A stretch of DNA of 64,000 bases. Origin: Bacillus sp. ISL-18 (GTDB lineage Bacteria > Bacillota > Bacilli > Bacillales > Cytobacillaceae). The position numbers and the translations under genes are program-made. Within the stretch, counting starts at the first letter, position 1. Each line of letters starts with the position of its first letter. Of the stretch, positions 1 through 15,677 are shown piece after piece. The DNA is taken from NCBI RefSeq assembly GCF_018613415.1, contig NZ_JAGGQG010000010.1:471573-535572 (forward strand). The letters run 5' to 3'. The notes below the pieces were generated by a model. The model did no database searches. It was not told the origin of the DNA and saw nothing but the letters and a program-made list of their open reading frames with translations.

Positions 1-483
1 TACATTTACTAATTTAGCTAAATCAAGTACATCTGCTGGAACTTCTTGTGGCTTTAATAGTTCTTCAGGGATTAATGCCCCACCTTCTACAGAAGTGAAT
101 CCTGCACGTTCTTGACCTTTTGAGCGAATATATGCATTAATACCATCTCTTACTTCTTCATTACCTTTTTTCATTTTACGTTGTCCCCCTTCAGGATTAT
201 CATTTTGGTTTGGTGTTTTTTGGTTTGATTCTTCAAGTGCTAATTCCAATGCTTGAATTTCTTTTTCTAAATTTGATTTTTCTTCTTCTTTTGCAGTTAA
301 TTCAGATTGAATTTCTTCAACTGACTTTTCTACAGTCGCTAAATCTTCCTCATTAGTAGCTTCATCAATTGCTCTAACAAGTTCATCTGAGCGTTCTTGT
401 ACTTCCTTAATTTCAGATAGTTTTACTTCTAAGGCACTACGCTTAAGTTTTAACTTAGCAGCCACAATTACTGGATTACTCAT
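1..483 (-). CDS. HK97-type major capsid protein, N-terminal part (cut by window edge)
   Basis: This is the first 161 codons of a capsid gene that runs off the left edge. The reading frame begins [20 protein letters not shown]. Residues about 10-95 are rich in Glu, Lys and Leu with heptad character, as in the scaffolding delta domain of HK97-fold capsid precursors. A Gly/Lys-rich break follows at about residue 100, then a segment resembling the mature capsid N-arm (GALIPEELLKP). The ATG overlaps the protease stop by 4 bp (ATGA), which implies translational coupling. Family knowledge: the delta domain is removed by the co-encoded protease during prohead maturation, and the mature protein builds the icosahedral shell. 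The assignment rests on position after portal and protease plus this N-terminal architecture; the core fold lies outside the window. Confidence 0.85.
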   Translation of the reverse strand, partial: MSNPVIVAAKLKLKRSALEVKLSEIKEVQERSDELVRAIDEATNEEDLATVEKSVEEIQSELTAKEEEKSNLEKEIQALELALEESNQKTPNQNDNPEGGQRKMKKGNEEVRDGINAYIRSKGQERAGFTSVEGGALIPEELLKPQEVPADVLDLAKLVNV

Positions 484-1043
484 TTACTTAACATCTCCTT
501 TAGTTTCTGTTTCCTAGTGTTTAATTTTTCAAGTTTGATAGCTTCAATGTCTTGTTGTCTTGCTGCAATTTCTGTTTGTGGGTATGCAGGAAAAGTTACT
601 GCCGATACCTCAAAAACATCTGCTTCACGTATAATAAATTTTGTTGTACCATCAGTACGTATCTCATAGTCTTCCTTGACAGGGAAAAAGCCAAAACTAC
701 AGGAGTTTATATCGCCCCTTTGAATACGTGCATATATAGCCATTGCTTCAGGGTCATTACGATTGATTTCAACTTTTCCATAGAGTCCTTTATCATCTGA
801 TTTCAACTCTAAAGTTTTGTTTCCCACCCTACCTAAAACGACACCTGTATCATGATTAAATAAACAACGAATATCATTTTTCTCTAAACTTTTTAGAACC
901 GCTTGTGGTGATACTTCTTCAAATACACCATCATAAAGTTCAGTTTCTTGGTTATACCGAATGAAATATCCTTCGATAAATAACTTTTCTTCATGTTCCT
1001 CTGCCCTAAATTTGCTTTCTAAAAAAGAGGTACGCTTATTCAT
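480..1043 (-). CDS. HK97-family prohead protease
   Basis: A 187-residue protein matching the phage prohead maturation protease family (peptidase U35). Visible hallmarks are the N-terminal strand GYFIRYN, the FNHD segment holding the likely catalytic His, and the later SCSFGF segment holding the likely catalytic Ser. In the family it cleaves the capsid delta domain inside the prohead. I place the start at the ATG at 1043 (MNKRTSF), because the strong AAGGGGGGTG Shine-Dalgarno is too close to the upstream in-frame GTG at 1055. It overlaps the portal stop by 8 bp and the capsid start by 4 bp. It lies within the continuous minus-strand head cassette TerS-TerL-portal-protease-capsid, which supports the call. 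Confidence 0.93.
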
Positions 1044-2226
1044 TAGTGTTTTCACCCCCCTTCAACTTCTCTTGATCACCTAATTGACCAGCAGGAATGT
1101 AATTTTCTAAAACAATTAACTCTTCCATTTCATCATCAGGGTCTAATCCAACCCAATCCCTTAATTCATTCCTTCGCATAGCGTTCATTTGTACCATTGA
1201 ACCACCAGCAGTTACTAATTCAGTTAAAGCATAAGAATACAAACTTCTTGGGTTTAGTTTGAAATACAATTTCGGACTGAATAGTAAATCTCTAGTCAAT
1301 GTTTGAGCAATAACCTGTGCAATAGACATGATTCGTGAATTGATGAAATTGTTATATTCGTCCTTGTTGAATGTTCCAACGCCCATAAAAAAAGCAGGTA
1401 CTCCTAAGAGTCCAGCCACTGTTTTCTTATCAATTTCAACTGATTCATTAATAGCAATATCATTTAGAGAAAGAGGTTTAATTTGTTGTATTTCCAATAG
1501 TTCTGCCGGAATAATCCATGGTTCTCCTGCATTGGTTGATTTCAAGTATTTATCCTTTACGGATTCCCTACCTTCAACGGAAGCAAGCTCCTCATTCATG
1601 GCATCTACTTTGACAATAACGTTTGGCATATACTTACCACTCATGAAACTGTTTTTCGTCTTTGTAGCTTGTTGTAAGTTCTTAGTTATTTCCCTCAATG
1701 CAACTCGATAACCTGTACCTTTAAACGGATAATTAGGGTCAGGATTAATTACAAAATGTATGACTTCATCTGGTGTGTAAATAGTTTCGTTATACTCAAT
1801 CAGGTATCCGTCTTTATTTTCCTTAAAAGTAACACCACCCATTTGAAACGGTGTTAAATCTTTAATGAATGTTGTCTGTTTATCTATACCAATGTGAACA
1901 ACTGAGTTTCCATCACCATATAAAAGTAAGTCAGATACTATTTTGTAAATCCATCCTTTACGAGTCATATATTTATAAGGGTTTATATCAAGTTTTCGTG
2001 ATAACTCATTCTTTACACGTTTATCGCCTTTGTCTGTATTCTCCATTAGATGAATAGTCATGTTTGAAACTAAGTCTGCAATTTTATCAACAGCTATTTT
2101 AACTTCTGGATTATCGGAAAGTTTCACGTATCCATTAGCTAGCATGTCATAAAATTCCACACTTGCTAATGCTTGAACTGCTGAATCAATTGAACGCTGT
2201 TGCTTTTTCCTTCCAAAGAATTTCAT
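1036..2226 (-). CDS. HK97-family phage portal protein
   Basis: A 396-residue portal protein. Family features include the N-terminal segment with an IADLVSNM helix, the central [26 protein letters not shown] region, and the C-terminal [31 protein letters not shown] stretch typical of HK97-like portals. As a dodecamer it forms the DNA entry/exit vertex of the head and docks the terminase. The start at 2226 is backed by GGAAGGGGGTGAATAAATG. Length is in the normal range of 380-430 residues. It sits 23 bp downstream of the large terminase and runs into the protease gene. Confidence 0.94.
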
Positions 2227-2249
2227 TTATTCACCCCCTTCCATCCAAC

Positions 2250-3998
2250 TCAACTATTTAACCATTTACTAACACTTTGAGCAGTTGCCATATCTTCAAG
2301 CATCTGACAACATGCAAAAACTGAAGCATCGAACAAATCAATGCGTTGGTTAGCCATCACTTTTTCGTATTGAATCATATCGTCTGTCTTTTCAATAGCT
2401 TTTACATTCTGAACACAATATTCAAATGCTTGATTCCCTAAATAATACAGTTCTTGGTTTTTTGCCTTCACTTCAATACGTCTAAAGCCTTCTGATTTAC
2501 GATAGAAATACTGTGGTTGGTCAACGATTCTAAAACCTGATTGTTTCATCTTTAAGAAAAACTCTCGACCAAACTTCTTATCAAATCCAACCATCTTAAT
2601 TTTGAATCCTTTTTTCTTCATTCCAATAAACCAGTTAACAATATCATCATAATGAACGGTAACTGTATTACTCATTGTAAGTACTCCATCATCTTTCCAA
2701 CCAAATAGAGGTATATTGTCTTCCTCTGCTTTCTGTGTCGCTCTTACAATTGGGAAGAATGCATGACTAATAGCAATATCAACTTCTTTACCATTTTTCA
2801 TTGTGTATCGTCCATATAGAGATGTCGCACTAAGATCATGTAGCTTCGAGCCATCGAACCCCCCATACCAAGTGATTGGAAGTTTAGCTAATTCTTCTAA
2901 CGTCCAACTATATTGAGCATTGGAATTTTTGAATTCATCAACGTTGAAGTAAGCTTTCATTGCAGATGTGTATATATTCAGTGACTTACTAAAAAAGTCT
3001 TTACGTTGCTGTGGGTCATTCTGTGCTTGTAAAGCATCATTTAATATATCGTCTGGACGAATAGTTACTCCATAATTAGGATTAGCTTTTTCATGTTGAA
3101 TTGGATCAGTATAATCGACCTCACCCAGCTCATTTTCATCGGCTTTAGCTATAAACACAAAATATTTTTCATCTGTGACTGTTTTATCTAATATCTTCTG
3201 ACAATATTTCAAACGGTTATAACAGAAACTTGTTTGGCTATCACCAGCAGTGGTAATTCCGACCATTAATTTGTTGGTGTATGCTTTCATAGCCTCCTTG
3301 ATGATGTTATATTGCTTTGGTGAACGGTAGGCATGGAGTTCATCTGCAATTCCGATATTACACAATAGCGAGTCCTGAGCATCTGGATTAGCTGCTAATG
3401 CTTTAATATAAATTGAACCATTATTACCAAAGTCACCACTGATTGAATGTTCCTGATTGTTGTCACGAACACGGAAATTATTTTCTTCACCCATTTGTTT
3501 CAAATTAAAATTAATAAAGTTGAATGACTGCATGGACTGTTCAAGTGCCGCACCTACAATATAAATGCTCGAACCACTTTTTCTTTCTAATAACGCTAAT
3601 CCCCATGAGAGAGCAGCAACAAAACGGCTCTTACCATTTTTTCTTGGCAGGAAAATGAACGCTTCTTTAAATCTTCGAATTTTTCCATTTGATTTCTTTA
3701 GATAAAAAGCCAACAGGTTATAAATAATAAACTTTTGCCACGGTTCCAAAATAAAAGGCTCACCCTTTAAAGGTGAACCATCTAATCTCTCTCCCTTGTC
3801 ATGTACAAAAGTTGTTTCAATTACTTGTATAACAAACTCTGCATCTTTTGGTAAAAAGTCATACTCTGTATTATTTAGGTCATCTAAGAAACGCTGACAC
3901 ATTTGAATAATTTCCTTACCTGCAACCTTTACTCCACTAACGATAGACTGTGCATACTCCATAACAACAGGTTCGTTAGAAAACTTTTTAGTTACCAC
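2250..3998 (-). CDS. Phage terminase large subunit
   Basis: A 582-residue packaging motor. The ATPase domain carries a Walker A-type PRKNGKS at residues 118-124 and a Walker B ending in IADE (Asp219/Glu220). The C-terminal RNase H-like nuclease domain begins with FDGSKLHDLSA (Asp382) and ends near an RIDLFDASVFA helix, where a further metal-binding Asp is expected. The protein would cut concatemers and pump DNA through the portal. The open frame starts at a GTG that overlaps the small-subunit stop by 11 bp and lacks its own Shine-Dalgarno, so translational coupling is likely. The subfamily is the HK97/phi105-type terminase that pairs with P27-like small subunits and HNH nucleases. Confidence 0.95.
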   Translation of the reverse strand: MVTKKFSNEPVVMEYAQSIVSGVKVAGKEIIQMCQRFLDDLNNTEYDFLPKDAEFVIQVIETTFVHDKGERLDGSPLKGEPFILEPWQKFIIYNLLAFYLKKSNGKIRRFKEAFIFLPRKNGKSRFVAALSWGLALLERKSGSSIYIVGAALEQSMQSFNFINFNLKQMGEENNFRVRDNNQEHSISGDFGNNGSIYIKALAANPDAQDSLLCNIGIADELHAYRSPKQYNIIKEAMKAYTNKLMVGITTAGDSQTSFCYNRLKYCQKILDKTVTDEKYFVFIAKADENELGEVDYTDPIQHEKANPNYGVTIRPDDILNDALQAQNDPQQRKDFFSKSLNIYTSAMKAYFNVDEFKNSNAQYSWTLEELAKLPITWYGGFDGSKLHDLSATSLYGRYTMKNGKEVDIAISHAFFPIVRATQKAEEDNIPLFGWKDDGVLTMSNTVTVHYDDIVNWFIGMKKKGFKIKMVGFDKKFGREFFLKMKQSGFRIVDQPQYFYRKSEGFRRIEVKAKNQELYYLGNQAFEYCVQNVKAIEKTDDMIQYEKVMANQRIDLFDASVFACCQMLEDMATAQSVSKWLNS

Positions 3999-4344
3999 TT
4001 AATAACTGAGCCAACTTTGATTGTTTAGGAGCTTCAGTTGTAACTGATTGAATGGATTTTGGATTTAAACACAACCTGTCGGAGTATGCAAGTAAATCTT
4101 TTCTTAATGATTCTAATGTTGCTACAATAGCAGACTTTTTTGTACCACCAGCAGCAGTTTCTGTTTCATATTGATAACCACTTTGTTCAAATTCTTTATT
4201 CGCTCGAATATATTGAGATAATAAATCAGCGTATACATCAATTAATGGATCATATTCTTCCTTGTATACACCAAGATTTTTCATATCTCGAATCGTATTT
4301 TTCTTTAGTGCGGACTTACTTGTTGTTGGTTTTGCCATAACCAT
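3988..4344 (-). CDS. Phage terminase small subunit (P27-like)
   Basis: A 118-residue protein, Lys-rich at the N terminus (AKPTTSKSALKKNTIRDMKNLG) and followed by a helical region with YADLLSQYIRANKEFEQSGY and a segment ending LCLNPKSIQS. This pattern is that of P27-type small terminases. The subunit recognises the packaging site and regulates the large subunit. AAGGAGCGA lies just upstream, and either the ATG at 4344 or the next in-frame ATG six bases downstream could start it. It leads the structural cassette and is preceded by a gene-free AT-rich stretch that may hold the packaging site. Confidence 0.88.
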   Translation of the reverse strand: MVMAKPTTSKSALKKNTIRDMKNLGVYKEEYDPLIDVYADLLSQYIRANKEFEQSGYQYETETAAGGTKKSAIVATLESLRKDLLAYSDRLCLNPKSIQSVTTEAPKQSKLAQLLSGN

Positions 4345-4497
4345 TCGCTCCTTTCTAAAAAAGTTTTCTGAAAATAGTGGAGAGGGAAAGAGTTTTGCCC
4401 ATCGGTCTTTATTCCTTTGAAATTTTTTTTAAAATTTTTGGGGGGATTTGAAAAAAGTAAAAAATAATTTTGAAATAAAATATTTTTGAAATAAAAT
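4345..4497. other. Gene-free AT-rich stretch, candidate cos/packaging or late-promoter region
   Basis: There are 153 bp without a gene between the HNH nuclease and terminase small subunit. It holds a GGGGGG run at about 4440-4445 inside long A/T tracts and a tandem repeat of TTTTGAAATAAAAT at about 4469-4497. HK97-like phages with an HNH gene beside the terminases usually have their cohesive-end site here, so this is a reasonable cos candidate. No cleavage site can be read off the sequence. Confidence 0.35.
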
Positions 4498-4785
4498 TTA
4501 TTCTTCTATGTGTTTCCTCATTCTCTCCAATAGTTTCATACCTGCATTAGTTAATTCATGTGAGTCCCTATCATGAAATGAATTGTGACAATTGTTGCAA
4601 CAACTATATAAGTTCGAACTCCTCATACCATACTCAGGATAATGTTCTAATGGAAAGATATGATGACATGTTGTCGCAGTAGTAGACTTACCATATCGCT
4701 TACACTCACGACATAGATACTCATCTCGCCTTAACACATTAGCCCTCTTCTTTATCCACTTAGTTGATTTATAAAAGCTAGTCAT
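4498..4785 (-). CDS. HNH endonuclease, terminase-associated
   Basis: A 95-residue single-domain HNH nuclease. The zinc/metal finger is visible: CRECKRYG, then TTCHHIFPLEHYPEY with the HH of the active site, then CCNNCHNSFHDRDSHEL. Small HNH proteins encoded immediately upstream of the terminase genes are known partners in cos cleavage by HK97-type packaging machines (established for phages such as HK97 and phiSLT). It starts at an ATG behind GGTGATAAGTA. Position, size and motif all agree with a packaging role rather than a homing endonuclease. Confidence 0.93.
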   Translation of the reverse strand: MTSFYKSTKWIKKRANVLRRDEYLCRECKRYGKSTTATTCHHIFPLEHYPEYGMRSSNLYSCCNNCHNSFHDRDSHELTNAGMKLLERMRKHIEE

Positions 4786-4810
4786 TACTTATCACCGAAC
4801 CATTCAATCC

Positions 4811-4843
4811 AAAATAAAAAGACACCAGTATTAAACTGATGCC
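4811..4843 (-). terminator. Intrinsic terminator after the Pmp3-like gene
   Basis: In the minus-strand RNA, a 9-bp stem (GGCAUCAGU with ACUGGUGUC, including G-U pairs) has a short AU loop and a tail UUUUUAUUUU. The pairing works only in the minus-strand RNA, which fixes the direction. Confidence 0.8.
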
Positions 4844-5050
4844 TTAATTATTCCTATTTGCTTTAGCTATAAGCTCTGCCTGTTTCTTCATTCGCCTATC
4901 TGCTTTCTTTTCGTTGACAACAAACAATGCATGAATAATCCCTGGCACATAAAAGAATAAACATAGCACTAAATTAATAAATGCTTGAAACGGTTTACCT
5001 ACAAGCAACACAGCAACAGGTGGTAACACAATAGCCAATAGATATAACAA
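4844..5050 (-). CDS. Small YqaE/Pmp3-family membrane protein
   Basis: A 68-residue protein with two hydrophobic segments, LLAIVLPPVAVLLVG and FINLVLCLFFYVPGIIHALFVV, followed by a Lys/Arg-rich tail. The PP in helix 1 and the FYVPGIIHAL segment in helix 2 match the Pmp3/YqaE (UPF0057) proteolipid family, which is linked to membrane potential and stress tolerance in bacteria and yeast. The frame starts at a TTG, with AAGGGAG about ten bases upstream, and ends just before a terminator. In a phage element it looks like a cargo (moron) gene expressed as its own unit. Family call firm, role inferred. Confidence 0.8.
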   Translation of the reverse strand: MLYLLAIVLPPVAVLLVGKPFQAFINLVLCLFFYVPGIIHALFVVNEKKADRRMKKQAELIAKANRNN

Positions 5051-5121
5051 AAATAACCCACTCCCTTAGAATAAATGTACTGCCTATTTATTCTATATAC
5101 GTTAGGATATTCCTTTAAGTT

Positions 5122-5289
5122 TCATCTATTCCTAAATTCTAAATAAGACACCCGTCTTTGTAACTCCCTATTTTCCTTCTTAACTTGATCAAACTGTTTA
5201 TTAAATTGATGTTGCATCTTATCTAAAACTGCAGCTATAATACTTAAGCCAATTATTAATAATACAAGTCCAAAAATTAAGGTTAACAA
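5122..5289 (-). CDS. Small membrane-anchored coiled-coil protein (55 aa, TTG start)
   Basis: This unlisted short gene starts at a TTG and is preceded by GGAGGG six bases upstream. The product begins with one hydrophobic helix (LTLIFGLVLLIIGLSIIAAVL) and continues as a charged amphipathic segment with the pattern QHQFNKQFDQVKKENREL that ends RRVSYLEFRNR. A single membrane anchor plus short coiled coil is common among small phage proteins (Rz-like or holin-associated types), but nothing here shows which. It sits between a terminator and the Pmp3-like gene in the string of tiny genes. Confidence 0.6.
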   Translation of the reverse strand: MLTLIFGLVLLIIGLSIIAAVLDKMQHQFNKQFDQVKKENRELQRRVSYLEFRNR

Positions 5290-5309
5290 TTTATCCCTCC
5301 ATTCAAGAC

Positions 5310-5342
5310 AAAATAAAAAGGCAATCCTCGTAAGGACTGCCC
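5310..5342 (-). terminator. Intrinsic terminator after the DUF6173-like gene
   Basis: The minus-strand RNA forms GGCAGUCC-UUACGA-GGAUUGCC followed by UUUUUAUUUU, a textbook intrinsic terminator 17 bp after the stop at 5359. Confidence 0.85.
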
Positions 5343-5358
5343 TATTATAGATAATAAA

Positions 5359-5730
5359 TTATTCATTGATAAAACCAATTTGCTTCTTAGGTTCTTCTTT
5401 ACTTTCTCTTGGTAAGGAAACTAATAAAAAGCTTAATTGATTTACATGTTGATATAACTCAACTGGAGCACCAGATTCAGTTATATTTCCTATAAGTTTC
5501 AATAATTTAGCACCCTTATGACCTATCGCTGTTATATTAATTGTCACAGTCTGACCAAATGAGGCTAACATAACTCCGACTTCATGGTCTTCATCTAAAT
5601 TTAAATTGTATTCATTCACTGCTTTTACAATATCCTCAGCAATTACTTCAGCATCGTCATAACGTGTAAATTTAACATTTTGTAATGCAGATACATCAGG
5701 AAGCTGAGGTCTTAAACTATTCCAATCCAT
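5359..5730 (-). CDS. Phage protein resembling DUF6173
   Basis: A 123-residue acidic protein. I start it at the ATG at 5730 (MDWNSLRPQLPD), because GGGAGGTGAG lies six bases upstream; the longer open frame adds 12 residues of no plausible use. The central DEDHEVGVMLASFGQTVTI and GAPVELYQHVNQLSFLLVSLP segments recall the DUF6173 family found in Firmicute phages. No catalytic motif is visible and no function is known to me. It ends at a strong terminator, so it probably closes a transcript beginning upstream at the two next genes. The family link is from memory of the motif and could be wrong. Confidence 0.6.
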   Translation of the reverse strand: MDWNSLRPQLPDVSALQNVKFTRYDDAEVIAEDIVKAVNEYNLNLDEDHEVGVMLASFGQTVTINITAIGHKGAKLLKLIGNITESGAPVELYQHVNQLSFLLVSLPRESKEEPKKQIGFINE

Positions 5731-5782
5731 AATCTCACCTCCCAAGGACAATCTTACAACAAACAAACGTTCCTAGAAAAGA

Positions 5783-6091
5783 TTATTCCCAATGTGTAAA
5801 GGTTTTTGCTGCTTTGTTCTGAACTATTTTCCTTTTTTGTGTTACATTCTCATTTTCAGCATTTCTTTTGTTTTGTTCAATTATTTCATCTTTGCTCATT
5901 GAAATCCCGATACAAACTATTTCATGCTTATCTACAGAATATTTAATAAAATCATCACTTACAAATGAAAACCATTTACTGGATTGGATATCCTGAATTT
6001 CATTTTTATATGCTTCAACATCTTTTAAATGCGTTAGGTAAGAATATTGTTTACCACTTTTTAAGACTAAATGAATTTGATATTCTGTCAT
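5783..6091 (-). CDS. Hypothetical phage protein (102 aa)
   Basis: I do not recognise this protein. The N-terminal half (MTEYQIHLVLKSGKQYSYLT, then a helix, then WFSFVSDDFIKYSV and HEIVCIGISM) reads as a small alternating strand/helix fold. The C-terminal 35 residues are Lys/Asn/Gln-rich and probably disordered. A strong GGAGGGATGATTT ribosome site precedes the ATG at 6091. It is the middle gene of a three-gene minus-strand run. Confidence 0.6.
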   Translation of the reverse strand: MTEYQIHLVLKSGKQYSYLTHLKDVEAYKNEIQDIQSSKWFSFVSDDFIKYSVDKHEIVCIGISMSKDEIIEQNKRNAENENVTQKRKIVQNKAAKTFTHWE

Positions 6092-6149
6092 AAATCATCC
6101 CTCCTTTCCACCTATATAAACTTCTAGGCAAAAAGAAGGAATTCCTGCA

Positions 6150-6335
6150 TCACTTAAACATTCCATCTACAACAAATGCACGATATATCTCTTCCACATC
6201 TTTAAAACAATCTTCCTTGGTATATCCATTCTTATTAATCTTCATGTACTTAGTAAATATTAAAGCTAATGTCTTTTTAGATTCCATTTCATCCATATCT
6301 TTTATTCTTTCAAAAATATCAGTTTCAAACGACAT
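6150..6335 (-). CDS. Hypothetical small phage protein (61 aa)
   Basis: I do not recognise this protein. It is a short, all-helical, charged protein (MSFETDIFERIKDMDEMES, then TLALIFTKYMKIN). The ATG at 6335 is chosen because AGGAGGG lies six bases upstream; the two earlier in-frame starts are directly against or before that site. The gene is preceded and followed by a repeated intercistronic motif (GCAGGAAT followed by a T-rich run). Confidence 0.55.
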   Translation of the reverse strand: MSFETDIFERIKDMDEMESKKTLALIFTKYMKINKNGYTKEDCFKDVEEIYRAFVVDGMFK

Positions 6336-6404
6336 TAACATCCCTCCTACTGACTTGTTCGCCAATAAAAGGGATATTCCTGCCAAATTTATGTACGTTA
6401 TGTA

Positions 6405-6962
6405 TTAATCTTCAATAACCTTATAAGTATTGCCTAAAATAATATTCTGAATTGATCTAGCTGTAACTCCAAGTTCTTTCCCCTTCATTTTGTACCATTC
6501 AACCTTACTTCCAGACCATGTTGTAAACTCTTCTCTAATTTGATTTGCTGCCTCGTTAGATAATCTAACCTTATTCCAGTATCTATCCCTTGAATTACCT
6601 TTGTTACCCTTATCAGTAATCAATCTCAGATTCTCAATTTTATTGTTACGTGGATTCTGATCAATATGGTCAATTTGTAATCCTTGAGATAACCAAAACT
6701 CTTTTTTAGTACCATATGCAGAACTTAAGACAATTTCATGTTTATACATCGGTATTAGTTCCCCTGTTTCATCGCACTTAAGTCTGGTCATTAAGTACTG
6801 TCCATTATCACCAGTTCCTTTACAAAAATCACTTTCAATTAACCATTTATTTCTAATTTTGCTCCATACTCTTCCTGATGGTGTGTGACATAAGTAATTA
6901 CTGAATCCCGGTACTGGTGTCATTTCACTTTTTAATTCTTCAAATGTTAACTTATTTTCCAT
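6405..6962 (-). CDS. NUMOD4-like HNH endonuclease (homing type)
   Basis: A 185-residue protein. Residues about 15-40 (PGFSNYLCHTPSGRVWSKIR) resemble the NUMOD4 DNA-binding module. The centre carries the HNH core with QIDHIDQNPRNNKIENLRLIT, where His/Asp and Asn form the metal site. The C-terminal region (KVRLSNEAANQIREEF, then KELGVTARSIQNIILGNTY) is a helix-turn-helix/NUMOD-type specificity domain. These are free-standing homing endonucleases that spread between phage genomes. It is distinct in architecture from the packaging HNH protein at 4498. A GGGG-rich ribosome site precedes the ATG. Confidence 0.85.
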   Translation of the reverse strand: MENKLTFEELKSEMTPVPGFSNYLCHTPSGRVWSKIRNKWLIESDFCKGTGDNGQYLMTRLKCDETGELIPMYKHEIVLSSAYGTKKEFWLSQGLQIDHIDQNPRNNKIENLRLITDKGNKGNSRDRYWNKVRLSNEAANQIREEFTTWSGSKVEWYKMKGKELGVTARSIQNIILGNTYKVIED

Positions 6963-6979
6963 TACAAAACATCCCCCTT

Positions 6980-7015
6980 AAAAATAAAAGAGGACTCTGT
7001 AAAAATACAGAATCC
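6980..7015 (-). terminator. Intrinsic terminator upstream of the homing endonuclease gene
   Basis: Minus-strand RNA GGAUUCUGU-AUUUUU-ACAGAGUCC is followed by UCUUUUAUUUUU. It would stop transcripts arriving from the small ORF at 7147-7263 and thus isolates the homing endonuclease gene as its own unit. Confidence 0.8.
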
Positions 7016-7146
7016 TTAAATAAATGAGCGGATGATAATGCTGTCCCTGCTAAATATTCAATTGTATTGAGCTGCCTCTCACCAACTCTATCCTCACTGT
7101 TAAACCTCTATAGATCAATTGAATAAGTCAGTTGACCTATACAAAT

Positions 7147-7263
7147 TTAACTCTTATGTATAACCCATTGAACACATGAAACTACACCATATTGATCAAC
7201 ATTCCACTTAATATACTTCTTCCTTGGTTCCTTTAATTCAATCTTGTCTTTGTTCTTTTCCAA
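7147..7263 (-). CDS. Possible 38-residue phage peptide (TTG start)
   Basis: A short frame reads (M)EKNKDKIELKEPRKKYIKW and then WNVDQYGVVSCVQWVIHKS. AAGGGG lies seven bases before the TTG. The N-terminal half is highly basic, and the C-terminal half could form strands, with the look of a small DNA-binding or scaffold peptide. There is no family I recognise. Support is only the ribosome site and frame, so it remains tentative. Confidence 0.35.
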   Translation of the reverse strand: MEKNKDKIELKEPRKKYIKWNVDQYGVVSCVQWVIHKS

Positions 7264-7385
7264 CTCTCTTCCCCTTTCAAAATTTCATTAAAAAATACTT
7301 GCATTCTCTTATTTTAGGGTTTATAATTGACACATAAGGTATATTAAGCCATAAGTATTGGTGTTTTTAAAATAAAAAATAAAAC

Positions 7386-7545
7386 AAAAAAAAGACAGAT
7401 AACTTCCCCTCAAAAGCCATCTACCCATTTGATAATATGTTAGGAAAGGGAAAAGTCACTTACTTTGCCTAATGCATTCAGTGCCACGACAATTGCTAGC
7501 TTCGTGTTCCAGCCCCCCCTCTTCCCTTAGTAGATAGGTATCCAC
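7386..7545 (-). ncRNA. Candidate small RNA or peptide gene bounded by terminators
   Basis: The stretch after the terminator of the 926-aa gene ends in its own minus-strand terminator at 7386-7422 (AGAU...AUCU stem with an inner CUU/AAG pair and UGUCUUUUUUUU tail). It is much more GC-balanced than its flanks, including a GGGGGGG run near 7515. A 29-codon frame (GTG at 7545 to 7456, starting MDTYLLREEGG) exists but has no Shine-Dalgarno, so a small structured RNA seems as likely as a peptide. No promoter is obvious between the two terminators. Confidence 0.35.
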
Positions 7546-7550
7546 CTAAT

Positions 7551-7590
7551 AAAAAACGCTAGAACCCTTGTGCATCAAGGACTCTAGCAT
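7551..7590 (-). terminator. Intrinsic terminator of the 926-aa gene
   Basis: The minus-strand RNA forms a long imperfect stem (GCUAGAGUCCUUG with CAAGGGUUCUAGC around a UGCA-containing loop) followed by GUUUUUUAUU. It lies 13 bp past the stop at 7603. Confidence 0.85.
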
Positions 7591-7602
7591 TATGCTAAAA
7601 TA

Positions 7603-10383
7603 TCAACCGTGACTTTTTTTGAAACAATTTAGGAATGTTTCTTTGTGGGCTTGATATAGACAATTCAACAAGTTTAATCTAAACGAATTATACTTCTTAT
7701 CATCAATATCCTTCAATATGCTATACATTGTATCTGACTTAATCTTTAACTTGCTGATCTTCTTGAGGTAAAAACTTTTAGTGTCTGATAATCGTCTATT
7801 CTTCTCATTCTTATTTAACTTTTTAGAATGTATTGACTTTAATTCAGCATTCAAATCATCTACTAACACTTTAATCTTTCCCCTTTGTTTACGATTAGCT
7901 TTATCAATATTAACCTTACGCAAGAAATAATTAAAGTTCCAAGTATCTACACCTTCTGCGTCCTCTAGATTACTTAAAATGTCACACAAATAATCCATAG
8001 GTGTATTGTAGTGTGTAAACTCTACCCCTTCTTTCTTATCAATATACTTGAAGAAGTTAGGTTTCTTTCCATCGAATTTTTCTTCAATGATATTTCTAAC
8101 AAATTTCTGTATATTTCTTAACTCACTGCCAATTTTAATTTTGTATTTACGCTTAGCGTTATCAATGGAACACATACTCAAAATAGTCAAAATATCAGTT
8201 TGCTTGTATATATCTTTATTTACTTCACCATTTTTGAAGTAATCCCAATATAGAGCATTACAAAGTTGCCCCTCATTAACAATACTACCTATTTCAGTGA
8301 CTGCTTTGCTTAATATGTGATCTAATGCAGCCATTTGATTATCTGCCAATGTATATGGTGTTTTATCAGCTTCTAATTCATTTACACACACATTGTATTT
8401 TCCGTAACTTTTATTAGCTAGTTTCGTTAAACTTTGACTAAAGAAAATTGCTGCAACATCACTATCCCAATCACACCCTGATAATCGGTTCATAATGTTC
8501 TCTTTGCACGAATTGACTGCAATAATATTAGGTGATAAATTGAAATATTTCTCTATATCCTTGTTGAAAATACATTTACCAATCATAATATTTGATGCAG
8601 ATGTATGAGGGTTTCTAAAAATGGTAAGTTCTTCACCAAAGGCATCATCACCAAACATTGTTGTATACACTTGATTACCAACTAACCCAATAGGTTCTGT
8701 AATTGTCTCACCTACCGCATGGTAAAGATAGTTAAGCGGTGATGAAAATAAGGTAGCATAGTCTCCAATCAGGCGAATATGTCCTCTTTTAATATATTTA
8801 ACATGATTATATATTGTATCGGCTCTAAACTTTTTGAATGCACGGGTATGTATAATTTCTTTATCTTGTTGATACAAATCAATAAACATTTTATCAGATG
8901 AATAGAAATTAAGTTTATTATCCTCGATTTCTCCCTCGTCATTAGTATCCCCATAATCTAAATTCAATTTAACGTGTTTCATGAACTTTTCCGGGTCATC
9001 CTTCAAACCTTCAATATAATTAACCTCAAACTTTGATAATTCTTTTATATCGGCTGGCGAAGCCTCTAAACTGTTCACCATTTGGTATGATAAACTTTGT
9101 AACGGTAATCCATCTATTTCACCTTTACGATTAGTTTTATCATGTTTACAAACTCCCCAAATATTTCCCCCATCTGATACGACCTTTTTCCAATGTCCCC
9201 ACATTCTAGACTGCCACAAATGTCCATGATCCTTTTCATTCTCACCATCAAGTTTAAATAAGTAACTGAATTTAAGGAATTTAATGCAAGTTGGGTTCAA
9301 TATCATCTTTATGGACTTTACAGGCATCTCTTCATTAAACATTGATGTTACAGTCCAAGTTTCATAATCCTTACCATGTTCCTTAGCATAATCTTCAAAG
9401 AATAATTGCAGGTTTGTTGAAAATGCTGCTGCTTTTGTAAAATGGCTACGTAATAACATCATAGACTGATTATCATCATAAAATTCGCTATCGAGTAATG
9501 CTTCACCATCGAATATACTATTTTCGATTGGATGATTTTTAATTGGAACACTGTCTACTTCACCATTTATAGTCTTAATTACATTTACTTCTTCCGGTTC
9601 TTCCCATCGTGAGAAAACTTCATCAACAACAAGGATAGAATTAGGGTCAATTTTTATGATTTTCTCAATACTTGAAGTAACTAGTGCTTGGTATGCACTT
9701 AGGCTTGCTAAATCGACTGATTCACCAAGTTTGAATGGTAAAAACATTCTAGACCATGCAATCATTTTTTCTTGTAAAGATTCCTTCACAAATAAACATT
9801 CGCCCTTTCTGGACTTGCTAGAGCTACGTTTATACATCTTATACGAATCTCTAATTATTTCATCAGTGTTCTTATCCACTCGCATAATGGTAAATCCATT
9901 CTCATATAAGTTATGTCTTAGCTTCTCCTTACTTACTTTTGACCAATTATCAGGTAGATTCTTAATGAGTTGTTTTCTACTACGTTTATAGTGTCTAGTT
10001 TGATTAAACTGCTTAATTAGGGATAATTTTTCTTTATCAGACAAACTATCTTTCTTATCCTTATATTCCTGTTTAATATCATTTAATTGTTTAGTTGCAT
10101 TTTCTAATTGATCAGTATAAATCTTTTCGTAACCATCTGTATCCTTAACAATGTTATTAAATTTTAAATTAATCACATCACGAGATAACAATTTGTTAGG
10201 ATTCCTATTTGACGTGAAAGTATTAAGTCCTTGTTTTTCTAACTGAATCATTTCCAATGAGTATGGAAGGAATCCAACATAAACAGAATACAAATTTTTA
10301 TCCCTGTTCATGTGTTCCCAAATATCACAAGCTTCAATTGATGGGATATAAACACCTTTATTAATTGTTTGATTATTTGTCAT
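7603..10383 (-). CDS. Candidate two-barrel single-subunit RNA polymerase (YonO/QDE-1-like)
   Basis: A 926-residue protein. Residues 638-642 read DWDSD within LSGCDWDSDVAAIFF, matching the DxDxD metal-binding loop of double-psi beta-barrel polymerases. FRNPHTSASNI at 589-599, 45 residues upstream, mirrors the RNP...DI motif that precedes DxDGD in QDE-1 and eukaryotic RdRPs. An earlier region near 400-470 (DHGHLWQSRMWG, then LPLQSLSYQMVNSLE) could be the first barrel and its following helices. The last 150 residues are Lys-rich and helical. Family knowledge: YonO of phage SPbeta is a single-chain DNA-dependent RNA polymerase of similar length. Here it could transcribe element genes or prime replication, since it follows the initiator-like gene and no other primase or polymerase is present. 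The usual Gly of DxDGD is Ser. AAGGAG precedes the ATG. I call the superfamily with moderate confidence and the role as inference. Confidence 0.6.
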   Translation of the reverse strand: MTNNQTINKGVYIPSIEACDIWEHMNRDKNLYSVYVGFLPYSLEMIQLEKQGLNTFTSNRNPNKLLSRDVINLKFNNIVKDTDGYEKIYTDQLENATKQLNDIKQEYKDKKDSLSDKEKLSLIKQFNQTRHYKRSRKQLIKNLPDNWSKVSKEKLRHNLYENGFTIMRVDKNTDEIIRDSYKMYKRSSSKSRKGECLFVKESLQEKMIAWSRMFLPFKLGESVDLASLSAYQALVTSSIEKIIKIDPNSILVVDEVFSRWEEPEEVNVIKTINGEVDSVPIKNHPIENSIFDGEALLDSEFYDDNQSMMLLRSHFTKAAAFSTNLQLFFEDYAKEHGKDYETWTVTSMFNEEMPVKSIKMILNPTCIKFLKFSYLFKLDGENEKDHGHLWQSRMWGHWKKVVSDGGNIWGVCKHDKTNRKGEIDGLPLQSLSYQMVNSLEASPADIKELSKFEVNYIEGLKDDPEKFMKHVKLNLDYGDTNDEGEIEDNKLNFYSSDKMFIDLYQQDKEIIHTRAFKKFRADTIYNHVKYIKRGHIRLIGDYATLFSSPLNYLYHAVGETITEPIGLVGNQVYTTMFGDDAFGEELTIFRNPHTSASNIMIGKCIFNKDIEKYFNLSPNIIAVNSCKENIMNRLSGCDWDSDVAAIFFSQSLTKLANKSYGKYNVCVNELEADKTPYTLADNQMAALDHILSKAVTEIGSIVNEGQLCNALYWDYFKNGEVNKDIYKQTDILTILSMCSIDNAKRKYKIKIGSELRNIQKFVRNIIEEKFDGKKPNFFKYIDKKEGVEFTHYNTPMDYLCDILSNLEDAEGVDTWNFNYFLRKVNIDKANRKQRGKIKVLVDDLNAELKSIHSKKLNKNEKNRRLSDTKSFYLKKISKLKIKSDTMYSILKDIDDKKYNSFRLNLLNCLYQAHKETFLNCFKKSHG

Positions 10384-10510
10384 TTAGCTCATTCTCCTTT
10401 GATTAAATTCGGATTAATATTATATAATTATTAACAATATTGAGTATGTAGCATGTAAATGTTCGTGTTTTAGTTGATTTTTAAGTATAAAAAAAGAACT
10501 TATGTAATCA

Positions 10511-11377
10511 TTAACAAATATCAGGTAAATTGCTTAAATCATCATTAAACTTTTCAGGACTATTCTTATTCCTTTGTTTACTTTTGCGTTCAGCCTTTCT
10601 ATTGGCTCGGTTAGTTATTATTTGCATATCATCTTTATAATGAAATAGCCAACCATTCCATTGTGATAATCCTTTATCTTTATTAGCATATTTGCCATTA
10701 TCCTCGAAGGTTATATGCTCATATCTATAACTACCTTCTCCACGTCTATGCTCATTCTTTTTCCTCCAAGAAACCATTAACTGATGCCTATTTAAGTTAA
10801 TAATCATCCTATTAATCGTATCTTTATCGATTCCTAATATTTCGGACATAGTTTCAATTGCCATATAACAAACATTGTTCTTATTATGTTGGAGCCTCTG
10901 CACTAAACAATGTAAAGCAAAATGTTTCTCATCTAACTTTTTGTCCTCATACCCTTTTAACAATCTAAAAGAAATGTAGATATAGAAATCTTCTGCTTTA
11001 TCAAATTCATTAAATATTGGAAATGATTCTCCTGGGCAAACAGTTATACTTAAAATTTTATCCTCTTTGATTTCTCCTTTTCCATCCAACAAATATTCCG
11101 ATCTAGACGCACCAGCTATAGAAATAACCTTTGCTGCTTTTAACTTTTTCAATAACCCGAACACATCCTCAGTTGTATATCCTGTTTCTTTTCTAAGTAA
11201 GGAAATGGAAGTTAAAAAAGTATGTTCATTTTCCTGATTATGTAATCGAAATTTATATAATTGTAGATATAGATAAAACCCTTTATATCCACCCATTTTT
11301 TGAAATGTATTCATCTTACGTTCTGGTTGATCAAACCAACGTGAAGGAATACGAATAGATTGAATTGAATAATTCAT
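10511..11377 (-). CDS. Winged-helix replication initiator-like protein
   Basis: A 288-residue protein starting at the ATG at 11377 (MNYSIQSIRIPSRWF), six bases after GGAGGT; the longer frame adds a spurious hydrophobic leader. Residues about 20-85 (MGGYKGFYLYLQLYKFR, then FLTSISLLRKETGYTTEDVFGLLKKLKAAKVI) look like a winged helix. A second HTH lies near 175-215 (MSEILGIDKDTINRMIINLNRHQLMVSW). The C terminus is basic and disordered. Two winged helices in tandem resemble phage and plasmid initiators of the DnaD/RepA N-terminal class. The direct-repeat array just upstream would be its natural target. There is no ATPase motif, so it is not a helicase. A role in replication is inferred from architecture and context. 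Confidence 0.6.
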   Translation of the reverse strand: MNYSIQSIRIPSRWFDQPERKMNTFQKMGGYKGFYLYLQLYKFRLHNQENEHTFLTSISLLRKETGYTTEDVFGLLKKLKAAKVISIAGASRSEYLLDGKGEIKEDKILSITVCPGESFPIFNEFDKAEDFYIYISFRLLKGYEDKKLDEKHFALHCLVQRLQHNKNNVCYMAIETMSEILGIDKDTINRMIINLNRHQLMVSWRKKNEHRRGEGSYRYEHITFEDNGKYANKDKGLSQWNGWLFHYKDDMQIITNRANRKAERKSKQRNKNSPEKFNDDLSNLPDIC

Positions 11378-11512
11378 TAGACTACCTCCATGATTAATAT
11401 TTGAATAAGAAACAATTACAATAAACAAAACAATTATAAATTTTAGGAACGCAGTCACTTTTGCGTTTCTAATAGTATTAACTTTATTACTCTATATTTA
11501 TTAACTTAATAA

Positions 11513-11836
11513 CTACATCCCCATATCGCATTTTTTATCATTAGAAATCAGTTAAAAAAGCGTACCCTTTTAGGAAAATATCATCAGCCTATATTTCTTT
11601 AATACTATTCAACCCCTTGTCTCTCTAAGGCTGAAGACACTTTTCAATTCTATGTGTAGTACATCCCCATTTCGGTACTTTTTATCATCGTTTTTGTACG
11701 AATAAGACTGCCCCTTAGTATGTAAATATCACTGTTTTTGCAAAGCACATGTACCCTTTTCAGAAAATATCATTAAATATGTCACGGAGCCTTATACACC
11801 AACGTTTCTAGCTGTTATGTAAAGTGAAAATATCAT
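11513..11836. repeat. Iteron-like direct repeat array, candidate replication origin
   Basis: Same-orientation repeats are visible in the leader of the initiator-like gene. Type A (TACATCCCCAT followed by TTTTTATCAT) occurs at 11513-11541 and 11659-11688. Type B (GTACCCTTTT followed by AGAAAATATCAT or GGAAAATATCAT) occurs at 11561-11584 and 11751-11773. A weaker copy lies at 11711-11732 (CCCCTTAG then AAATATCA) and a half copy at 11819-11836 (GAAAATATCAT). All share CCC, then 10-14 bases, then TATCA. This fits initiator-binding iterons; binding sites for the element's own polymerase are an alternative. The stretch 11459-11848 holds no credible gene. Confidence 0.6.
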
Positions 11837-11848
11837 TGAAATTGCAGG

Positions 11849-12034
11849 TTAATTATTTGATAATCGTTTATAATCATCAATTGCACTCTGCAACTCTTCG
11901 TTTTTAATGAACATTGCAAAAGTTTTATCGGTCACTGGATGTTTTGCTACAGTCAAAAAGTCAATTCCTTTAATATCCTTGATAAATGTGAACAGTCGTT
12001 TGTTGTAACAGAAAAAGATATCCGATTTATTCAT
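11849..12034 (-). CDS. Small phage protein, DUF5659-like
   Basis: A 61-residue protein: MNKSDIFFCYNKRLFTFIKD, then GIDFLTVAKHPVTDKTFAMFIKNEELQSAIDDYKRL. The pattern of a CYN start, a FIKD..GI segment, then a strand with TDKTF..F and a final helix is that of the DUF5659 small proteins found in Firmicute phages and ICEs. No function is known to me. Its Shine-Dalgarno is a near-perfect AAGGAGGTGATC. It sits immediately upstream of the repeat array and probably is the first gene of the replication transcript. Confidence 0.65.
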   Translation of the reverse strand: MNKSDIFFCYNKRLFTFIKDIKGIDFLTVAKHPVTDKTFAMFIKNEELQSAIDDYKRLSNN

Positions 12035-12137
12035 TTTTGATCACCTCCTTCAGTACCCTTTTAAAACCCTAGTTTTATTTGATGATTGTTAAGTTAATTA
12101 ATATTGCATTCCAATTTTAAAAAAATGAAAAATTGGA

Positions 12138-12166
12138 TTGACTTATCATTGAACTGTCCGTATAAT
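12138..12166 (+). promoter_or_regulatory. Strong sigma-A-type promoter on the opposite strand
   Basis: TTGACT at 12138-12143, a 17-bp spacer and TATAAT at 12161-12166 are near consensus. It faces opposite to all surrounding genes and is the only such unit in the replication region. Confidence 0.65.
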
Positions 12167-12172
12167 GTGATT

Positions 12173-12464
12173 TATAGGACGATAGACTATAAACTTATCA
12201 AAGAACTAAAAAATAAAAATAGGCAAAAAGAAATTACGAACTTGTATAATCGAGCACGCTTATTTGTGTTTCTTTATAAATATAGAGTTACCTTTAATTA
12301 TATCAAGTTTTTACCAGTATTACAATATATTTTTAGATAATTTAGACTAGCAAATCTTTAGTTCAAATTCCTCTTTTTAACATTTTAAATGGTTAATATA
12401 ATAAAGCTATGAATTGACCCCCTGAGATATACTTTTGGACTCCATATAAGGGGTCTTTTTTTGT
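12173..12464 (+). ncRNA. Candidate plus-strand noncoding RNA of about 290 nt
   Basis: The strong promoter at 12138-12166 and the plus-direction terminator ending near 12464 delimit a transcript with no ribosome site and no frame of useful length. An open frame at 12104-12340 begins upstream of the predicted start site, so it would not be made from this RNA. The RNA is divergent from the DUF5659-like gene and ends convergent to the early gene at 12476. A regulatory or copy-control RNA is the simplest idea, by inference only. Confidence 0.4.
12416..12464 (+). terminator. Plus-direction intrinsic terminator
   Basis: GACCCC(C)T pairs with AGGGGTC, with an inner TATA/TATA pair, followed by TTTTTTT at 12458-12464. 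The T-run exists only on the plus side. Confidence 0.65.
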
Positions 12465-12475
12465 CATCCAACCAT

Positions 12476-12805
12476 TTAAATTAGTAGTTTGTTAATGTCT
12501 TGATCATTGTAAAAGGCATCTATAAGTTGATCTTTAATCTTGAATAGGCTTCCACTTTTGATAATATCAATTAACTCCTCTTTTTCCTTCTCACTGAACA
12601 TACCACCTAAAATTTGAAATGCGAATGTTTCCATTATAAATATGGAATCAAACTGTTTCATGTTTGTTAATGCTCGAATGATTTCCTCTTTATTGTCCTT
12701 CACACATTCCCTTAAGAAATTTTTAATACTTGGTTTCTTTTTTGCCATGCCAACCTTATAAGCTTCTTCTAAATTAACCATTGCCTCATTCATCATTGTT
12801 TCCAT
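12476..12805 (-). CDS. Hypothetical early phage protein (109 aa)
   Basis: I do not recognise this protein. It is all-helical and charged: METMMNEAMVNLEEAYKVG, a basic KKKPSIKNFLREC segment, then long helices ending DQLIDAFYNDQDINKLLI. GGGGGAG precedes the ATG at 12805. It is the third gene of the early minus-strand operon that starts at the promoter near 13420, 14 bp after its neighbour. Confidence 0.55.
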   Translation of the reverse strand: METMMNEAMVNLEEAYKVGMAKKKPSIKNFLRECVKDNKEEIIRALTNMKQFDSIFIMETFAFQILGGMFSEKEKEELIDIIKSGSLFKIKDQLIDAFYNDQDINKLLI

Positions 12806-12819
12806 ATTATCTCCCCCTG

Positions 12820-13065: not shown

Positions 13066-13117
13066 TTATAATATCCTCCCTAATGATTACCAAAGGGGGA
13101 ATAATCCCCTCATTTAA

Positions 13118-13357: not shown

Positions 13358-13386
13358 TATGTAACCTCTCCCTTTTTAACTTATTT

Positions 13387-13410: not shown

Positions 13411-13419
13411 GTTGAGTCA

Positions 13420-13517: not shown

Positions 13518-13796
13518 ATGGAGTCAACATTAATGATTGATAATAATTTTGTTGCTAATCTAAGCGTAACAATTGAACAATTAGGAATAACAAGAAATGC
13601 TTTAGCGGTAGAAGCAAAAGTAAGACCTTTAACCATTAATGAAATAGTAAGTGGTAAAGCAAAACAAATTAACTTTGTTACACTTAATAAGATACTGGAA
13701 GCATTAAACAGGATTTCAGAAGAAAAAGGGTTAGAAAAAAAATATTTAGTTTCAGATGTATTTGAATATGCAGACACAAAAAAGACGGATAACTAA
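13518..13796 (+). CDS. Cro/C1-type HTH regulator of the element
   Basis: A 92-residue protein. Residues about 12-60 form a Cro/C1 helix-turn-helix: VANLSVTIEQLGITRNALAVEAKVRPLTINEIVSGKAKQINFVTLNKILEAL, with the recognition helix around RPLTINEIVSG. The remainder is a short charged tail without a protease or ligand domain. It is the only plus-strand gene with a full set of signals (promoter, GGGGTGAT ribosome site, terminator) in the element, placed divergent to the early operon with a palindrome between them. That is the classic lysogeny-switch layout. It is smaller than typical CI proteins, so SOS-type self-cleavage is not expected. Confidence 0.85.
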   Translation: MESTLMIDNNFVANLSVTIEQLGITRNALAVEAKVRPLTINEIVSGKAKQINFVTLNKILEALNRISEEKGLEKKYLVSDVFEYADTKKTDN

Positions 13797-13922: not shown

Positions 13923-14798
13923 TCATGTTGATAATGGACTATGTTTAGATGCCCTTTCCAATATTCTTTTATCAGCAATTGATTCTAAATACCGTTGAGT
14001 AGTCGAGATTTTCATGTGTCCGACAGTCTTTGAGAGTGTATAAATATCAATCTTCTCAATCATGTTCTGGATGTAGAATCTCCTGAAATTATGGATTGTT
14101 TTTGCTACATCAATATCCAATACTTCCCCCATTTCTTTTATCAACTTGACCAATGCGAACCTCGTTACATTCCTTCTGTATCTGCTAACAAATAATAGAT
14201 CGGATTCATGCCCTTCCATGTATTCCTTCCGTATCCTCAAATACTTATTTAACTGTACCTTTAATACCTTGCTTAATGGCACATATCTAATTTTATTACC
14301 CTTACCCATTATTCTAATAGCGTTATTACTTATGTCAGTAAGTTTGATATTTCTCATTTCAGAATTTCGAACGCCTGTTTCCGCTAAACAAATAATCATT
14401 GTCTTATTCCTCACAGGCATAAATTTATTACCTTTCCAATAATTCAACATCTTGTGAATATCTTCCTTATCATAAGCTGGAATAATAGGTGGCGGAGATT
14501 TCAATAATTTAATTTTAGCCCAAGGACTTTTTTCAATAATCTCTTCTTCTATAAGCCAATTAAAGAAAGGACGAATATGTTGTATCTTTGAATTAATACT
14601 GTTAGCTTTGCACCTAGTCTTTTCATCAAGTATCCATTTACGTAAAAAAGCAGAAGCAATTTCCTCAACATCTTCTACATCATTTTGGTTACAGTACCTA
14701 ATAAATTGATTTAAAAGTACCCTTTTTTGTCGTATCGTTTCGACAGTGTAACCATCTGCTTCACATACTAGTAAGTACTCTTCTGCTAAGTCTTTCAT
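13923..14798 (-). CDS. Tyrosine recombinase / integrase
   Basis: A 291-residue site-specific recombinase. The N-terminal core-binding (SAM-like) domain spans about residues 1-85. The catalytic domain shows Arg144 in ETGVRNSEM, Lys166 in GKGNKIR, His236 and Arg239 in HNFR, His261 in VGHM and the nucleophile Tyr270 in QRYLES. All active-site residues are present, so it should be functional. It would integrate and excise the element. It is the last gene before host sequence, facing inward, and is followed by a gene-free 125 bp. The ATG has a weak site of its own but overlaps the stop of a tiny frame (14795-14806) that has AGGAG. Confidence 0.95.
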   Translation of the reverse strand: MKDLAEEYLLVCEADGYTVETIRQKRVLLNQFIRYCNQNDVEDVEEIASAFLRKWILDEKTRCKANSINSKIQHIRPFFNWLIEEEIIEKSPWAKIKLLKSPPPIIPAYDKEDIHKMLNYWKGNKFMPVRNKTMIICLAETGVRNSEMRNIKLTDISNNAIRIMGKGNKIRYVPLSKVLKVQLNKYLRIRKEYMEGHESDLLFVSRYRRNVTRFALVKLIKEMGEVLDIDVAKTIHNFRRFYIQNMIEKIDIYTLSKTVGHMKISTTQRYLESIADKRILERASKHSPLST

Positions 14799-14978
14799 TG
14801 TACCATCAACATCTCCTATATAGTTAACTTGATTAGTACAATTCTGTGAAAACCCTATAATACCAAGGTTTTTGTGAACATTTTCTAAACATATAGTGTT
14901 AACATTGTTAACTTCATTCCTTTGTTATTTCGCCTGTATTATAATGGAATAAATTATGGGGGTTCGAGGTGAACAGTG
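14799..14978. other. Element/host junction region
   Basis: These 180 bp lie between integrase and the first host gene. The right attachment site should be near here, but it cannot be named because the left end is outside the window. Visible elements are GTTAAC boxes (14823-14828 and paired at 14898-14912), a three-codon frame coupled to the integrase start (14795-14806), and a TATAAT at 14940-14945 that is probably the -10 of the downstream host regulator. I see no tRNA gene, so insertion seems intergenic. Confidence 0.4.
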
Positions 14979-15677
14979 ATGGAACAAACATTAAAAATAA
15001 CAAACGTTTTGTCAGATCCAACACGTTACTACATTTATCAATACATTACAAAACGCCATCAAGAGGTAACAGTTCAAGAGGTGGCTGAAAATTTTAATAT
15101 TCATCCAAATGTAGCACGACTACATTTATCAAAACTAGAGGATGTTAATATGTTAGCATCTGAAACAAAGAAAACAGGAAAAGGCGGCAGACCAAGCAGA
15201 CTATACCGTTTATCCGATGATGTTATCCAGCTGCATTTCCCATACCGCGACTACATGCTTTTATCAAAAGTAGCCATTCAGACGATGATATCACTCGGTG
15301 AAGCTGGTAGAGAAGCACTGTTTATGACCGGTAAACGATTTGGAACGGAAATAATTGAACAGGAACTGGCAAAGCGAGCATTGGGTGATGATCTGACATT
15401 CGATCAAAAGCTGACGATTTTAAAAAGCGCTGCCACTCTTGCAGGATTTTATCCAGAGTTTGAAGTGGGCGGTGACCAATCAAAAATTTACTTCCAAATT
15501 TTTAATTGTCCATTTAAAGAAATTGCTGAGGACCACACTGAAGCAGTTTGCAATATGCACCATAAATTTTTAAAGGGAATGTTTGAAGCTTTATTCGATT
15601 CAGTTGAATTGATCGAAAAAGAAAACATGATTTCAGGCTGTGAGACATGCTCTTATCAAGTGCTTGTGTCAAACTAA
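14979..15677 (+). CDS. ArsR-like winged-helix transcriptional regulator with C-terminal ligand domain
   Basis: A 232-residue protein. Residues about 1-75 form a winged helix (ITNVLSDPTRYYIYQYI, then VTVQEVAENFNIHPNVARLHLSKLEDVNMLASETKKTGKGGRPSRLYRLS) like the DeoR/ArsR/SufR-type regulators. The C-terminal half resembles the metal- or ligand-binding domain of that group and contains several Cys/His (FNCPFKEIAE, VCNMHHKF, GCETCSYQV), consistent with binding an iron-sulfur cluster or metal. Start chosen at the ATG at 14979, seven bases after GAGGTG. In related bacilli a similar gene sits between the comG operon and yqgY, so it is host DNA bordering the prophage. The ligand is inferred. Confidence 0.75.
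   Translation: MEQTLKITNVLSDPTRYYIYQYITKRHQEVTVQEVAENFNIHPNVARLHLSKLEDVNMLASETKKTGKGGRPSRLYRLSDDVIQLHFPYRDYMLLSKVAIQTMISLGEAGREALFMTGKRFGTEIIEQELAKRALGDDLTFDQKLTILKSAATLAGFYPEFEVGGDQSKIYFQIFNCPFKEIAEDHTEAVCNMHHKFLKGMFEALFDSVELIEKENMISGCETCSYQVLVSN

Follow-up and report, generated by a model that had tools for sequence, protein, structure and literature searches.

The window, the whole analysed stretch of 64,000 nucleotides from Bacillus sp. ISL-18, encodes a prophage's own single-chain RNA polymerase (RNAP) with two double-psi barrels. Its family, predicted fold and conserved active-site residues show that it belongs with YonO. The enzyme is most probably made early and transcribes the late genes downstream of it, a reading to which a probability of about 0.8 is given. 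YonO-like prophage proteins were already known. What is new is a promoter-like block and a structured RNA of about 95 nt behind the RNAP gene, recurring in related viruses. Small prophages that carry a divergent YonO, a block in a constant position and an accompanying RNA would make the promoter question testable with one enzyme and about 200 bp of DNA. The features are as follows.

7603..10383, minus strand: single-chain two-barrel RNA polymerase, YonO family, 926 aa (PHROG, profile comparison, model)
8458..8472, minus strand: codons of DWDSD, the metal-binding motif, residues 638-642 (Asp triad in 54/54 aligned proteins)
8602..8619, minus strand: codons of FRNPHT, residues 589-594 (R590 and P592 in 54/54, H593 in 43/54)
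10511..11458, minus strand: winged-helix, replication-initiator-like protein of the early region (HTH_36 2.4e-6, DnaD_N below cut-off, weak PHROG initiator matches)
13518..13796, plus strand: Cro/C1-type regulator, likely the repressor (HTH_26 7.4e-6)
13923..14798, minus strand: tyrosine integrase (Phage_integrase 1.9e-23)
14872..14987, no strand: attachment site, a repeat of 116 bp flanking the element, right-hand copy (the left-hand one is at contig 450808-450922)
7555..7591, minus strand: terminator-like hairpin behind the RNAP gene (terminator scan)
7515..7538, minus strand: promoter-like block, putative start signal of the RNAP (matrix, left-out-cluster test)
7436..7530, minus strand: structured RNA, about 95 nt (model R1, 74.8 bits)
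7393..7426, minus strand: second terminator-like hairpin, behind the structured RNA (terminator scan)
480..6962, minus strand: start of the late region with HNH genes, TerS, TerL, portal and head protease (outside the window the region goes on to capsid, tail and lysis-type genes)

The RNAP open reading frame, counted from its ATG, lies on the minus strand, and the plus strand over the same positions is broken by many stops. The profile phrog_8308, which itself carries no function label, covers residues 7-925 of the protein (E = 6.3e-134, PHROG profile search), and SPbeta YonO falls into the same family with 1220 bits. BLASTP of the two proteins gave a single-pair E of 8e-4, with DWDSD aligned onto DNDGD. 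Profile-profile comparison (hhalign) gave 99.1% against the SPbeta/Perkons pair and reached 100% when five YonO-type proteins were used, bearing out the kinship that a sequence-only reading of this DNA had proposed. Pfam and NCBIfam gave no match to the protein at E up to 1; among PDB sequences phmmer returned a single chance-like coiled-coil match (E = 0.032), and a profile search of the PDB gave nothing significant, maize RDR2 standing at E = 0.79. One relative of the YonO type, from Thomasclavelia phage TR-TP1, has a Pfam RdRP match (4.5e-19) and so links the YonO type with the eukaryotic enzymes.

An AlphaFold2 model built from an alignment of 64 sequences had a pLDDT of 90.7, as against 43.7 when 15 sequences were used. 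In structural comparison the predicted model came closest to RDR2 and QDE-1, both of them two-barrel polymerases, in keeping with the fold expected from the sequence-only reading. Superposition of the whole model onto QDE-1 aligned 650 residues at 4.0 Å, and RDR2 could be aligned as well. The model predicts two double-psi barrels in one chain and puts DWDSD between strands 620-623 and 643-647, in keeping with a place in a barrel loop. The protein had been proposed as a new lineage of single-chain polymerase. It does appear to be a distant relative of YonO on a divergent branch, but the phage polymerase family to which this branch belongs had already been described.

Both motifs were read from the translation as first reported, H593 of FRNPHT lying 45 residues ahead of D638. 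Nine residues are invariant in the 54 aligned YonO-type proteins: R312, K317, R590, P592, D638, D640, D642, D741 and K744, a conservation beyond what chance would give. For the two basic residues that the other barrel contributes in this family, the candidates by sequence position are K317, kept in 54/54, and K413, kept in 38/54. The serine that replaces the usual glycine of DxDGD is real and is a trait of the lineage, position 641 being Ser in 33 and Gly in 16 of the 54 proteins.

Relatives of the RNAP were found by tblastn in 12 of 50,697 phage records, three of which label them RNA-dependent RNA polymerase, and in 1 of 72,556 plasmid records. The phrog_8308 profile matched Bacillus subtilis only among 14 control genomes and 5 of 398 genomes drawn across the phylum. 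Within the host's own family the gene is present in 7 of 193 genomes, the copy in G504 being in two frames. A profile scan of viral contigs yielded 36 loci including L001, at 27-67% identity. For many of them the contig is 27-44 kb long and for some 65-173 kb, a contig possibly being shorter than its genome. The motif of the 35 viral loci besides L001 reads DxDSD in 32 and DxDGD in two, and one has a 554-aa frame lacking it.

The gene is interrupted in several relatives. In Cytobacillus citreus (L002, 10246-11405) the homologue is broken near its start by two open reading frames resembling, by eye, an IS3-type transposase pair. Two gut-phage relatives carry the gene in two frames a few hundred bp apart (L017, 3369-6509; L018, 7974-11220). 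A group I intron was considered as the cause of these two splits and dropped, as no Rfam match reached the gathering threshold. The two frames of G504 and the interruption in L002 suggest that the RNAP gene can be lost.

The gene belongs to a prophage of about 35.7 kb, and not to the very small mobile element that had been assumed. Its limits are given by a flanking repeat, made up of a 97-bp exact match next to one of 18 bp (the copy in the window is 116 bp long), and by the sister genome G010, where the site is empty: the flanks are joined there at 96-98% identity with one 116-bp copy between them. The gene order is integrase, Cro/C1-type regulator, small early genes, initiator-like gene, RNAP, HNH genes and late genes, the last running from terminases through portal, protease, capsid and tail to genes for a holin and for a peptidase that carries a peptidoglycan-binding domain. 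The tail genes include Dit-like and Gp37-like ones. Judged by this gene content, the element is a complete-looking temperate prophage of the siphovirus type. Capsid-forming phage satellites have head genes without tail or lysis genes; such a satellite is ruled out here by the tail, holin and lysis-type genes that follow the head genes.

Two stretches of DNA were noted in passing. One lies past the lysis genes but within the limits of this prophage (L010, 714-6111). Its genes, of the FtsK-like, replication-relaxation, pilin-like, AIPR and DNA ligase kinds, are together reminiscent of modules from plasmids or conjugative elements. The other, to the left of the window in its own genome (L011, about 5190-15090), is a stretch of about 9.9 kb missing from G010; by eye, a 490-aa recombinase-like frame stands at its end beside competence-like frames of the comG type.

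When the seven RNAP-bearing genomes of the host's family are taken together with L001, 7/8 have an integrase belonging to a single cluster. G498 is without it and has packaging and capsid genes in common with the others. An early protein of 60-78 aa is likewise present in 7/8, and the late modules vary.

After the RNAP stop codon follow, in order, a terminator-like hairpin, the block, the structured RNA, which opens with the block, and a second hairpin. A terminator scan of 801 bp gave five terminator-like sites where 0.2 are expected. In the window's lineage the block has the approximate form GTTCCCTATATGGTAGAGGG. A matrix places one right behind the RNAP gene in 36/40 loci, scored on its own training sequences, the exceptions being L164, L188, L189 and L190; in L191 the first matrix scan gave no block site. 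Altogether the matrix reports 64 sites in the 895 kb of these loci, but 9 once this DNA has been shuffled. With the locus's own cluster left out, the block is the top site of the whole locus, both strands included, in 25/41 loci and ranks fifth or better in 33/41; seven of the nine clusters have a member at rank 1. The window is among the 8/41 below rank 5, its own copy reaching rank 26 only. For these left-out tests, in both lineages, the seed was chosen by eye after all sequences had been seen.

At the corresponding place SPbeta-type loci have a different block, near GTC-N3-TAAGGGAG. In a leave-one-out test of 16 of the 18 SPbeta-type loci (L143 and L152, showing no visible block, were left out), it ranks first in 8/16 and within the first five in 15/16. 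In L154 the site ranked first, located 209 bp past the gene, is probably a different element. No such block was seen by eye in the BUCT082-type loci L019, L033, L039 and L044. In SPbeta itself the block stands before yonN and, with SPbeta left out, ranks 14 of about 134,000 positions in 67 kb. The gap from yonN to yonK, which carries no annotation, contains a DUF3800-VIII RNA (L045, 6625-6734; 47.5 bits, cut-off 40.2) together with a skipping-rope RNA that scores below threshold (L045, 7979-8044; 29.6 bits, cut-off 36.7).

The structured RNA was described by the covariance model R1, searched over 73 sources. It matched 24/73 at E < 0.001 and gave 25 matches at E < 0.05, every one directly behind an RNAP gene. 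These 25 consist of 19 training sequences, five near copies and L069, the sole new match and a weak one (E = 0.039). Over 193 whole genomes R1 gave seven matches at E up to 0.001. Six of them, all training sequences or near copies, are in 6/7 of the RNAP-bearing genomes, G504 being missed. The seventh, in G611, was taken as false: it lies inside a 396-aa frame, and no such RNAP is among the surrounding open reading frames listed. The genome scan speaks for the specificity of the model, not for an independent find. Rfam 15 covariance models gave no significant match at the place of the RNA (window 6900-7620, L159, L161, L183).

Pairing in the RNA was examined by counting compensatory changes over 12 named pairs in 19 sequences. 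Both sides had changed in 46 cells, compared with 15.1 in shuffles; none of 500 shuffles reached 46, and slid partners reached at most 24. The three-helix structure had been derived by hand from the very sequences later counted, and for this reason the slid-partner control favours it by construction. In the alignment A9, which was fitted to the structure and the counts of which consequently lean towards it, 18 of 500 shuffles reached the observed number of pairs in which both sides had changed. The alignment puts helix 3 partly in the wrong place (63% paired cells, 56% in a second count), and RNAalifold on a MAFFT alignment found 7 pairs only, near the ends. A9 contains 36 G-U pairs and 9 A-C pairs, an excess that points to the strand shown here as the sense strand of the RNA.

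The loop of the first hairpin contains a palindrome of at least 6 nt in 17 of 20 distinct loops, whereas 2000 rounds of loop shuffling gave on average 3.1 such loops and never more than 9. This suggests that two copies of the RNA pair with each other. The internal loop of the second hairpin keeps GAA and AGTA in most sequences, facing each other as in bulged-G motifs. The RNA is best regarded as a candidate new structured RNA with signs of loop-loop self-pairing. On the plus strand, around positions 7290-7340 of the window, a TTGCAT-N17-TATAAT pair seen by eye is directed back at the RNA, and some relatives have similar sequence. It was absent from the output of the consensus scan, and for this reason an opposing sigma-A-type promoter is not claimed here.

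Some relatives keep the block without the RNA, which makes the block a candidate for the promoter that the polymerase itself uses: L163, L168, L170 and L180 have a block and no R1 match behind it, the following gene in the last three reading by eye as HU protein-like. Alternatively, the block could be the 5' strand of the RNA structure, or a processing or termination element, with the polymerase starting elsewhere. All 22 modelled sequences fold with the ends of the RNA paired (P1-P3 enforced where pairable), the G-rich half of the block pairing with the 3' end, as this explanation would have it. The YonO paper (PMC5467207) likewise puts the published late start of YonO upstream of yonK and an unannotated RNA, away from the SPbeta block. 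Against it stand the retention of the block in the four loci just named, the hairpin preceding the window block, as would be expected of a new start, and the change of block sequence between the two RNAP lineages. The explanation is a real contender but on the whole somewhat doubtful. The published start is placed only as upstream of yonK, since the numbering of the 168 chromosome was related to NC_001884 by an assumed offset. SPbeta would have two or more starts, or else the block has another purpose.

In the preferred reading, the RNAP is most likely DNA-dependent and made from the early operon, as YonO and the gene order suggest. Once the prophage is induced, the enzyme would transcribe the downstream genes for packaging, capsid, tail and lysis, which share its strand, and the layout of the genes fits this. 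That it starts at the block directly behind its own gene is given roughly even odds; the SPbeta block lying before yonN, the published start upstream of yonK and the weakness of the window's own copy count against this step. The first transcript would be the RNA of about 95 nt, either a leader or a small RNA of its own that stops at the next terminator. The latter may be the case because it lies between two terminator-like hairpins, the second of which, standing between the RNA and the late genes, counts against transcription into them. A wider and distinctly tentative proposal is that YonO-family polymerases have their cognate promoter behind their own gene, changing with the enzyme. The first product in the DxDSD lineage would then be this undescribed RNA, which would pair with itself through its palindromic loop and have a function in the late programme, such as an effect on the polymerase or a part in particle assembly.

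A role of the RNAP in making primers for prophage replication, the structured RNA being a primer or origin transcript, is very unlikely. In its favour, the initiator-like gene lies directly upstream, next to the RNAP gene as the sequence-only reading had it, and Pfam found no further polymerase or primase among the 29 other element proteins scanned. Against it, the repeats reported beside the RNAP gene are present (11476-12090), but they are a few imperfect direct repeats of two or three copies and not an array; an origin-like repeat array was not found near the gene. Moreover, the RNA is situated at the head of the late region, and YonO, the tested family member, transcribes the late genes of SPbeta (PMC5467207). 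Priming finds no specific support. An RNA-dependent RNA polymerase for RNA amplification or defence, as some public annotations of relatives have it, is most improbable: the nearest solved structures are eukaryotic RNA-dependent enzymes and one relative matches Pfam RdRP, but the RNAP gene has early phage genes on one side and late ones on the other, no partner for silencing was seen, and YonO is DNA-dependent with a strong preference for DNA templates (PMC5467207).

YonO is, to our knowledge, the sole tested member of its family. Enzymes of its type have been proposed to resemble the single-chain ancestor of cellular RNA polymerases. The YonO paper (PMC5467207) already mentions YonO-like proteins in Firmicute prophages and leaves the YonO promoter open, and a jumbo-phage paper (among PMC7824862 and PMC7481178) names two large phages with YonO-like proteins. 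In a literature search with most subscription journals outside its coverage, no title or abstract start among the papers listed described the present RNAP lineage, its RNA or a YonO promoter sequence.

A promoter of the T7 type is a single conserved block with a G-rich start at its end, adjoining the phage's own RNAP gene. The window block resembles it in being one block, with a G-rich end, near a phage-encoded RNAP. It differs in that the polymerase folds are unrelated and in that the block, known from sequence alone, occurs mostly at one site per locus. The phage proteins P32 gp64, P74 gp62 and P23-45 gp96 show lower similarity and come from other phages, with presumably other gene surroundings. 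QDE-1 and RDR2, cell-encoded RNA-dependent polymerases of eukaryotic RNA silencing, have 11-13% identity to the window RNAP. SPbeta YonO shares 15-20% identity with it, has DNDGD in place of DxDSD and is separated from it by a long branch (1.22, support 1.000). SPbeta measures 134 kb, the present prophage 35.7 kb, and the structured RNA belongs to the window's lineage, R1 not finding it in the SPbeta-type loci searched. The two polymerases nevertheless have a PHROG family and conserved residues in common, and the gene of each heads the late region of a Bacillus-type prophage.
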